Shown: positions 61,571 to 64,000 of the stretch, piece by piece | Position numbering within the stretch: the first letter of the stretch is position 1 | How the letters are laid out: every line of letters begins with the position of its first letter | Source of the DNA: Rufibacter radiotolerans | Lineage (GTDB): Bacteria; Bacteroidota; Bacteroidia; Cytophagales; Hymenobacteraceae | NCBI RefSeq assembly: GCF_001078055.1 | Contig: NZ_CP010777.1 | Location: 4,121,001 to 4,185,000 of the forward strand | Reading direction: 5' to 3' | Length of the DNA: 64,000 nucleotides | Notes under the pieces: generated by a model | Seen by the model: only the letters and a program-made list of their open reading frames with translations | Told to the model about the DNA's origin: nothing | The model's database searches: none | Position numbers and translations under genes: made by a program

Positions 61571-61709
61571 AGGTCTTTGGGTTAATTGTTTAACGATGGA
61601 CCAAAACTACCCGCCCCCGGTGACAACAGTCTGTCAGTAGCCTGCAGAAAAATTAAAGAGATTGGATGAGGTGGATTGCCTGTAGCTTTTGTGAATAGAG
61701 CACACACTC

Positions 61710-61747
61710 CGTTTCTAGCCTGTTTTTCAGAAAACAGGCTAGAAACG
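61710..61747. repeat. PalA palindrome, perfect
   Basis: CGTTTCTAGCCTGTTTT / AAAACAGGCTAGAAACG, every base paired, loop TCAG. The GG of the consensus is TA here with matching TA on the other arm. Confidence 0.95.
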
Positions 61748-61845
61748 CTGGCTAATATGGAGACTTATCTTTTTTAGTAAATAGCGCAATTGCCTGCTTG
61801 GCCCATCCTAAATACTCACACTACAACGGTTAGATGAATCAATAC

Positions 61846-63015
61846 CTACTTAACCGCCGCCAGAATACGCTTAAAGAACTCATCGCCGTTGGTCTGGTGC
61901 CAGCGCCACACTACTACCAGGTCATGTTCGGGGTCTACCCAAATGGTGTTGGAGCCGGCGCCCAATGCGGCATAACTGGTGGCCGGGGCGCTGGGCCATT
62001 GTTTTTTCTGGGTGTTCAGCCACCAGAGGTAGCCGTAGTCGGGGCCGATGGGGCCGGGCGTGGTGGCCTGTTTCACCCATTTCTCAGAGACCAGCTGCTT
62101 ATCTTTCCAGCGGCCGTTGCGCAGGAACAGGTAGCCAAAGCGGGCCTCGTCGCGGGTATTGATCCAGAGGCCGCCGCCCCAGCGGGTACCGCCGCTCACG
62201 CTGGGCATCTGCTTGCCGTCTACGTCTACATAAGAGTTTTTGTAGGGCAGGTATTTCCAGGTGTTGGAAGCGCCAATGGGGTTCATGATCTGCTCACGCA
62301 GCACCTCGGGCAGGGGCTTCTTCCAGAGCCGAAGTAACGAAAGCGACAGCCGGTTAATGCGCACGTCATTGTATTCATAGAAGGTGCCCGGTTCTTTCAG
62401 TTCGCGCGGTTTGCGCTCGCCGCTGCCAAATTCCTCTTTGTCCACAAAGGTGTGGCTCTTGCCGAACAGCTCTCCCTCCCACTCGCTGGTTTGCTGGGCG
62501 TGGTGGTGCCAGGTAATTTTCCTGTTGTGCTCAGCGTCATAGCCGCCGTCTTTAATGTAGTTAGCCACCGGGTCATGCACATCTTTAATCATGCCCTTGT
62601 CTATGGTGATGCCCAGAATGGTAGACAGAAAACTCTTCGCGATACTGTAGGTAGGGTCTACGGCCTTGGTGTCGCCCCACTCAGCTACAATGTAGCCGTT
62701 CTTTAAGATGATGCCGTTGGTACTGGCGCGGTCCTTCGGGATAGCCCCCAGCAGCTTCCCGAAGATCTGCTCCTGGTCAGAGAAGTCTTTGGGCCGCTTG
62801 GTTTCCTGGGTCTGGGCGTAGGCCACCGCCTGGGCCAGCAGTTCGGCATCCATGCCCACTTGCTCAGGCTTGCGGGTTTCCCAGTAATCGCCGGAGCCCG
62901 GGTAGTAGACTTTGGCATTGGAAGTGGCGGTTTGGGAAGTAGTACCGGAATTGGTTTGGCAGGCTAGTAATCCTGCTAGCAGGAAAGGCAGGAAGCGGTG
63001 GAGGGTTCTTTTCAT
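61846..63015 (-). CDS. Serine hydrolase lipoprotein (class C beta-lactamase family)
   Basis: Exported enzyme (389 aa) of the beta-lactamase/esterase superfamily S12. The signal KRTLHRFLPFLLAGLLAC gives a lipid-anchored Cys near 19. Motifs: SxxK as SIAK in PTYSIAKSFLSTILG near 124-138, YxN as YND in TFYEYNDVRINRLS near 216, and a late HTNG-like HQTNGDEFF near 376 replacing the KTG box. Likely an esterase or D-aminopeptidase rather than a resistance enzyme. Lies next to the A+T-rich gene at the right edge. Confidence 0.87.
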   Translation of the reverse strand: MKRTLHRFLPFLLAGLLACQTNSGTTSQTATSNAKVYYPGSGDYWETRKPEQVGMDAELLAQAVAYAQTQETKRPKDFSDQEQIFGKLLGAIPKDRASTNGIILKNGYIVAEWGDTKAVDPTYSIAKSFLSTILGITIDKGMIKDVHDPVANYIKDGGYDAEHNRKITWHHHAQQTSEWEGELFGKSHTFVDKEEFGSGERKPRELKEPGTFYEYNDVRINRLSLSLLRLWKKPLPEVLREQIMNPIGASNTWKYLPYKNSYVDVDGKQMPSVSGGTRWGGGLWINTRDEARFGYLFLRNGRWKDKQLVSEKWVKQATTPGPIGPDYGYLWWLNTQKKQWPSAPATSYAALGAGSNTIWVDPEHDLVVVWRWHQTNGDEFFKRILAAVK

Positions 63016-63094
63016 TGGGTTTTTATAGTAAAACCGGTAGTAGAAAAAGAGAGGAGAAGTTGAGGAATTGTATGAAGTTAACCGTTGGTATATA

Positions 63095-64000
63095 CTAACC
63101 GGTAGGTTCTGTATTATTTTTCAAATCAAGCATTTTATTAAATAGTGGCATATGCAGTTCAGAGTTATGCATGACTTCTAGAATCACATCTATACATTGT
63201 TCTGAGAATACGATTCTTTTTCTAGAATCAAGCGTTTCAATCCATATATAGTTGCTAAAGCTCTCAATAACTGTTCCTTCAGGTGGGTTCTCAACTTTAA
63301 AAGTAGCAGAATTAACCCACCCTAAATGACAAATAGCAGCTTTTAGTTGTTGATTCGTAAACTTATATATGCTTTTTTCTTTAGCTTGTTTTTCTAATGT
63401 TATAAGGTAAATGAAATCACGAGGAGCAAGGCTTTTTACTTCACCCACAATTTTATACAAGGGCTTACCCTCGTCATCAGATATTTTACCAATTTCCCCC
63501 GCTGAAATAGCATTTAAGATAATATTAAAAACTCCACTTTCAGACTTGTCGATTTCAATATCACTGCTTGATAAAACATTATCTTTCCCATTAAATCCAT
63601 AAACCTTATTATGCTTTGGATTTATAATTAAAACTTCTCTAGGATTTATATCAAACATTTCAGGCAATAGTTTTGACCAAATCTCCATAAATTCCTTATT
63701 TTTCTCATTAGCTTTAATCTGGAGGAATCGATTAAACTCTTGAGCTGAATGATTTGCCGTCTCATTTTTCCCTGAGGCCCGATATGTAATATCTCCTTTT
63801 TTCAATTTATAATCTGGGAAATCATTGACAGGAATAAGAACATTATTTTGCTTTTCTATCAAAAGTGAATAAAACTTTCGAGTTCCTAACTGAAATACCT
63901 GTAAATCTAAGTCCAATCCAACCTTGCAAATCTTTTCAAATTTTTGTGACACATAACTTAAATCAATTTTACTAAGTAGGTCACAATTATTTATATCTAG
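63095..64000 (-). CDS. A+T-rich accessory gene, 5' end outside the window; similar to the C-terminal part of AlbA_2/Schlafen-type proteins
   Basis: The frame is open from the stop at 63095 to the right edge (about 301 residues visible). A GTG at 63952 is the first possible internal start, but the frame continues upstream without stop (LDINNCDLLSKIDLSY), so the gene is probably cut. The order KFYSLLIEKQNNVLIPVND, KKGDITYRASGKNE, FNRFLQIKANEKNKEFMEIW, ISAGEIGKISDDEGKPLYKI and VGEVKSL recalls the region after the AlbA_2 domain in putative ATP-binding/DNA-binding proteins of genomic islands. Base and codon use differ sharply from all other genes here, suggesting recent transfer. Identification is tentative. 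Confidence 0.5.
   Translation of the reverse strand, partial: LDINNCDLLSKIDLSYVSQKFEKICKVGLDLDLQVFQLGTRKFYSLLIEKQNNVLIPVNDFPDYKLKKGDITYRASGKNETANHSAQEFNRFLQIKANEKNKEFMEIWSKLLPEMFDINPREVLIINPKHNKVYGFNGKDNVLSSSDIEIDKSESGVFNIILNAISAGEIGKISDDEGKPLYKIVGEVKSLAPRDFIYLITLEKQAKEKSIYKFTNQQLKAAICHLGWVNSATFKVENPPEGTVIESFSNYIWIETLDSRKRIVFSEQCIDVILEVMHNSELHMPLFNKMLDLKNNTEPTG

Follow-up and report, generated by a model that had tools for sequence, protein, structure and literature searches.

The window analysed here, 64,000 nt in length, is the stretch G000:C1:4121001-4185000 of the 4.82 Mb, single-contig genome of Rufibacter radiotolerans. Its rightmost gene, which encodes a protein with an AlbA_2 domain, lies on the minus strand at 63095-64000, and its reading frame is open to the edge. 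In the right-hand continuation of the window (L009; a window coordinate equals the L009 coordinate plus 60000) the start codon, an ATG, is found at L009:4252, the would-be window position 64252, 252 bases past 64000. The full-length product, P0001, has 385 aa, of which residues 85-385 are encoded within the window, and its orthologs share the same start methionine and have a similar length. The gene stands out by composition: the 906 bases at 63095-64000 have a G+C content of 0.316, versus 0.525 +/- 0.035 in 900-bp windows elsewhere in the window (z = -6.0), and the GC3 of the whole gene is 0.24, compared with 0.74, 0.71 and 0.59 for the hydrolase, AsmA and DinB genes, respectively. A sequence-only reading of the window had already picked out, from 63095 onwards, an A+T-rich gene with unusual codon use that runs off the edge, which these values confirm. 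Going upstream from the start codon, G+C recovers to about 0.48 in no more than 200 bases, and the next gene has 0.54. Since G+C recovers on both sides, the A+T-rich patch corresponds to a single gene of about 1.3 kb rather than to the start of a long region.

The left neighbour is a serine hydrolase of the beta-lactamase family (61846-63015, minus strand), which had been taken for a typical gene; its PF00144 match and its GC3 bear this out, and it is kept in 13 of the 16 genomes of our genus sample, our own included. The junction between hydrolase and insert (63016-63094) carries no attC-like site, cassette-type complementary end or clear repeat, and a search for repeats at the insert ends yielded no more than AACCGGTAG-type matches and one imperfect palindrome of 22 nt without clear meaning. 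On the other side lies an AsmA-family gene (L009:4458-6980), followed by a tRNA-Val (L009:7154-7229), a CxxCxxCC-type protein and then more ordinary genes. The order hydrolase - spot - AsmA - tRNA-Val is found in our genome and eight congeners, which is every genome in which both protein genes were found together. The spot itself (L009:3016-4457 and the equivalent interval in L060-L067) holds differing, often A+T-rich single genes from one congener to the next. It is nearly empty (131 bp) in one of them (L061), contains a decayed GNAT remnant in another and an ABC-type gene with an IS110-like transposase in a third, while the unrelated cargo of the others includes a GNAT gene, a SIMPL-like protein, a pair of lipoprotein-like genes and a small TPR-like ORF (all cargo names were assigned by eye). 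The spot thus takes up additions, and our genome gained one gene there.

Two minor features of the region may be recorded here. Five congeners (L068-L071 and L073), in which no AsmA gene was found at the locus, have two tandem tRNA-Val(tac) genes instead of one. A palindromic repeat of about 38 nt, of the GCCTGTTTTC...GAAAACAGGC type, occurs at window positions 61709-61750 and at L009:4415-4455; there are dozens of copies in the genome, 85-92% identical and often directly 3' of a gene, which makes it look like a REP- or terminator-like family.

The abrupt composition shift at 63095, together with the frequency of AlbA_2 proteins in islands, had led the sequence-only reading to propose that a genomic or defence island might begin at this gene and run rightward, with an accessory system past 64000; it suggested extending the sequence to the right and comparing the insertion point in relatives, and named typical genes in a shared order as an outcome that would refute it. 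This is the outcome that we obtained. Normal G+C and ordinary genes return within 200-450 bases, the positions of AsmA and tRNA-Val are conserved in the congeners, the place of the supposed accessory system is taken by these and other ordinary genes, and the next 15 kb contain nothing island-like. A genomic island would be a long foreign region with several accessory or mobility genes, whereas here we find one gene of about 1.3 kb flanked by core genes. An island or prophage border is thus ruled out by the sequence to the right and by the congener loci, and we regard that explanation as refuted. The gene is a single, horizontally acquired one that sits alone in an intergenic spot of variable content, with conserved genes to either side; its acquisition follows from its outlying composition, from its absence from the 203 other genomes of the family that were searched and from the nearly empty spot in the congener.

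The assignment of the protein to the AlbA_2/Schlafen group, proposed earlier from the order of its motifs, stood up when the full-length product was compared with PF04326 (Schlafen, AlbA_2) as had been suggested: residues 26-166 match with 33.1 bits, above the gathering score of 25.3 (E 8.9e-8; Pfam), and the fold comparisons described below agree. The part encoded within the window gives no PF04326 match by itself, and the earlier view of it as the C-terminal half of such a protein needs correcting, as it comprises the last half of the AlbA_2 domain (63754-64000, minus strand), a middle region and the C-terminus. The candidate catalytic residues E26, D31 and E73 are encoded beyond the window edge. 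The middle region (residues ~167-280; 63413-63754, minus strand) has no library match and is poorly modelled, and it is the most conserved part of the family, with 47 of 114 residues invariant. The C-terminal domain (residues ~281-385; 63098-63412, minus strand) is confidently modelled and winged-helix-like, with weak matches to MarR-type and other winged-helix proteins; a fold search with the C-terminal 221 residues gave several weak winged-helix matches, none of them significant.

The AlphaFold model of P0001 has a mean pLDDT of 65 and a pTM of 0.38, being good for most of residues 1-135 and 281-380 and poor mid-protein. With this moderate-quality model, the best Foldseek match is the RecG-related AlbA_2 domain 2kyy (E 1.5e-4), followed by SLFN13, SLFN5 and the SAMD9 tRNase domain (E 0.003-0.15). 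Across 15 orthologs, E26, N27, D31, K33 and E73 are invariant, and the resulting E-x4-D-x-K ... E arrangement parallels E205/E210/D248 of SLFN13, a correspondence drawn from motif spacing rather than from a residue-level structural alignment. Only the area around E73 was aligned by a tool, to SLFN12, in a search of the PDB with the family profile, where it was the top match at E 0.56 and is not significant alone. Mutation of the three SLFN13 residues abolishes or reduces tRNA cleavage (PMC5862951). NCBIfam and PHROGs offer no name for P0001, PADLOC-DB contains no family matching it up to E 1, and a search of the viral fold library gave no match below E 0.001. We attribute to chance a Neurobeachin match in Pfam (E 0.05-0.09, below the cut-off), an aminotransferase match in NCBIfam and the calcium uptake protein matches returned when the PDB was searched with the single protein sequence.

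The family is sporadic. In addition to the searched genomes of the host's own family, the gene is missing from the 394 other genomes of a phylum sample and, by family-profile search, from the 394 other genomes of a class sample. When about 85,000 species genomes were scanned with a peptide pattern, 14 orthologs (a lower bound) with 52-77% identity were recovered, in Sphingobacteriaceae, Flavobacteriaceae, Cytophagales, Chitinophagales, Bacteroidales and a MAG that carries the label Gracilibacteria. One further ortholog came from IMG/VR (L075, 47% identity) and one from a phage collection (L076, MT837725.1, 48%), giving 16 orthologs besides our own copy, 47-77% identical and mainly in Bacteroidota. 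No relatives were found on plasmids, and further viral scans made for deeper alignments added no viral contig beyond the one already found. MT837725.1 is labelled 'Bacteriophage sp.' and UNVERIFIED; it encodes an EcoRII-type restriction-modification pair, and since its content looks bacterial, as of a chromosomal scaffold, it is not counted as phage. The ortholog genes have 25-32% G+C in surroundings of 28-48%, and nucleotide similarity between loci is mostly confined to the gene: even in the closest pair (L013 and L025, 93% identical) it extends just 58 bases upstream and about 78 downstream. The gene spreads as a single unit and is distributed patchily across distant hosts. The Cellulophaga baltica ortholog (L025:6001-7157) is split into two overlapping frames by a frameshift or a sequencing error; copies elsewhere are intact.

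In the other genomes the gene does keep the company that had been expected of it, namely defence islands and mobile elements, in the form of defence neighbours, phage regions and gene cassettes. Seven of the 16 orthologs have restriction, Abi, CHAT or Schlafen-helicase genes within 6 kb: AbiH (L016), an AbiC-like/AbiP protein (L017), a CHAT protein and a DpdF-like helicase (L015), type III mod/res (L018), an SLFN-g3 helicase protein (L021), an MmeI-type enzyme (L024) and EcoRII with its methylase (L076). We take this neighbourhood as suggestive rather than as a test of association. Six orthologs and the window copy have no recognised defence or phage neighbour, and one ortholog (L019) lies directly 3' of an apparent tRNA gene, identified by eye. 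Two orthologs are in phage structural regions, that of the IMG/VR contig between terminase and portal genes and that of L024 near terminase and recombinase genes in addition to the MmeI-type enzyme. From these two one might conclude that the gene is a phage-borne accessory, serving superinfection exclusion or counter-defence, which was left here by a decayed prophage or by transduction and has no present role in the host. We find this improbable, as no phage gene or remnant lies beside the window copy, its frame is intact and full length with every family-invariant residue retained, and the orthologs are mostly chromosomal.

The domain content leaves room for another function. AlbA_2 domains were originally described as putative DNA-binding domains, and with a winged-helix-like C-terminus to provide sequence specificity the protein could be a regulator that binds DNA or RNA without cutting it. 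This too we think rather unlikely, given the invariant acidic residues and lysine at catalytic spacing, the proven RNases among the nearest fold matches, the recurrent defence neighbours and the lack of a constant adjoining gene that could be its target.

We therefore lean towards a solitary, horizontally acquired Schlafen-type gene that encodes a putative anti-phage effector, with AlbA_2 as a metal-dependent RNase. Its occurrence elsewhere in phages, beside defence genes and as a cassette gives it the look of an anti-phage gene that travels freely, not of an island edge. The RNase assignment draws on the PF04326 score, the Foldseek matches, the invariant E26, D31, K33 and E73 and the SLFN13 mutants, and the putative role in defence on the neighbours of the seven orthologs and on reports that some bacterial Schlafens act against phages (preprint 10.1101/2025.07.24.666596, as cited in PMC12839542). 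Most likely, the protein would be a solitary RNase-type effector that cuts tRNA or rRNA after infection; the domain and its conserved carboxylates are established here, while activity, target, trigger and defence role are ones that we infer. In such a scheme, the AlbA_2 domain would be kept inactive until infection elicits a response of the middle region and the winged-helix-like C-terminus; it would then act as a metal-dependent ribonuclease through the invariant carboxylates E26, D31 and E73, with tRNA or rRNA as likely targets, and the cutting of RNA would stop translation and limit the spread of the phage. We count against this reading that conservation in the family peaks in the unexplained middle region and not in the catalytic domain, as well as the lack of a PADLOC match, the low pTM and the ortholog and window loci that are free of defence or phage neighbours.

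With the bacterial Schlafen/AlbA_2 anti-phage proteins (PF04326; as cited in PMC12839542), P0001 shares the AlbA_2 domain, the candidate catalytic carboxylates, the winged-helix-like C-terminus and the occurrence in defence neighbourhoods, but the gene here is solitary. BREX-linked Schlafens have a histidine-kinase-type ATPase between the AlbA_2 and winged-helix parts, whereas here none is recognisable and the nearly invariant region stands in its place. With SLFN13, SLFN12 and the SAMD9 tRNase domain it shares the fold of one AlbA_2 lobe and a similar E-x4-(E/D)-x-K ... (D/E) pattern, sequence similarity being restricted to a short GG-G-ED motif. SLFN13 has two lobes that form a pseudo-dimer, while the protein here, a predicted RNase, has one. 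A compact single-gene family without a database name, composed of AlbA_2, a nearly invariant middle and a winged-helix-like end, is thereby added to the bacterial Schlafens. It offers a catalytic hypothesis that is accessible to point mutants, and it is an example of a probable defence gene that stands alone and would be missed by methods relying on co-localisation in defence islands.

Two flavobacterial genomes, Cellulophaga baltica (G931) and Flavobacteriaceae Hp32 (G930), carry the gene within a series of cassettes, for the most part single-gene and same-strand, with attC-like palindromes of either 127-130 or about 190 nt between them. Complementary ends are the hallmark of integron cassettes, and in these cassettes the opening GTTnnnnnnn is the reverse complement of the closing nnnnnnnAAC. 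The pairing observed across the flavobacterial cassette ends was reached by 0 of 10,000 permutations, with several automatically called sites in the list being spurious and acting against the signal. At the gene itself, the ends in L025 and L023 pair over 14 nt with few mismatches at most, which 0 of 300 shuffles reached in either case; those of L013 pair imperfectly, without significance when taken alone (p 0.09), the locus being 93% identical to L025 with an attC-like sequence adjoining. The gene is thus clearly an integron-type cassette in L025 and L023, and probably one in L013. As in integron gene cassettes, a single gene lies between complementary GTT... and ...AAC ends in L025, L023 and, less clearly, L013, and attC-like palindromes adjoin it in L025 and L013; unlike them, the window copy has no such ends, and the integrases of the arrays lack the IntI-specific insert. 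For the window copy, the best end pairing has p ~0.6, and there is no attC-like hairpin in L009:2900-4600; together with the other cargo of the spot, it shows no convincing cassette ends or attC-like sites (best p 0.05 among five). A mechanical cassette-end match in L012 (GTTTTTGGGTGATA) lies inside the next gene and was discarded.

The C. baltica and Hp32 arrays (L101-L105, L107, L108, L121-L123 and L127), whose attC-like sites have two fixed lengths and whose ends pair over up to 10-14 nt, also carry GmrSD, a DRT2-type reverse transcriptase, GNAT, amino-acid racemase and thioredoxin-like cassettes, with a related integrase nearby. In Hp32, there is also a 427-aa tyrosine recombinase of another subfamily upstream of attC-like sites (L106:1392-2675); its match to the XerA type is weak.

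Similar arrays occur in the host genus. In our genome, about 16 small, same-strand ORFs come after a 490-aa tyrosine recombinase (C1:1016090-1017563) and reach down to ~1006162 (L124 and L128), with attC-like sites mostly of 63-65 nt. The starts and ends of the first six cassettes, which were delimited by hand after the sequence was seen, pair at 6-7 of 7 positions, a total reached by 1 of 720 permutations, the observed one. When cassettes were called automatically and consecutive ones with at least 6/7 pairing were compared with shuffles, the counts were 4/9 for our own array (shuffle mean 0.6, maximum 4), 15/21 for L130 (1.3 and 6), 7/13 for L129 (0.8 and 5), 6/13 for L135 (0.6 and 5) and 1/4 for L134 (0.5 and 2). 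By these counts the arrays are clear in three congeners (L129, L130 and L135) and not in L134, and the case for our own array comes mainly from the hand-delimited test. The integrase is present in all 16 genomes of the genus. Our own and four flavobacterial integrases score 175-201 bits against TIGR02249 (IntI), below its cut-off of 265; the match splits in two, with the stretch at about profile positions 180-240, the IntI-specific insert, missing. Rfam returned no attC-type family match on the arrays, and a literature search, which left preprints and most subscription papers outside its scope, found no description of them. According to a large survey with IntegronFinder, complete integrons are almost absent from this phylum (PMC9024848).

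We tentatively suggest that solitary anti-phage genes may circulate in Bacteroidota partly as cassettes of integron-like platforms whose XerA/IntI-like integrase has no IntI-specific insert, with the window copy having escaped from such a pool or inserted off-site, although we would not call this probable. Such platforms would have attC-like sites of ~64 nt in the genus, or of ~128 and 192 nt in flavobacteria, would carry GmrSD, DRT2 and AlbA_2 among their cassettes, and may be missed by a standard integron search. In both the host genus and flavobacteria, the arrays with a non-IntI integrase at their head may matter more than the AlbA_2 gene itself and merit a study of their own. Beside the integrase, in distant Bacteroidota, there is also a small, divergently oriented zinc-ribbon-like ORF (L124:5673-6065, L122:9902-10249 and L123:3248-3607), and a similar ORF occurs at L012:10905-11267.
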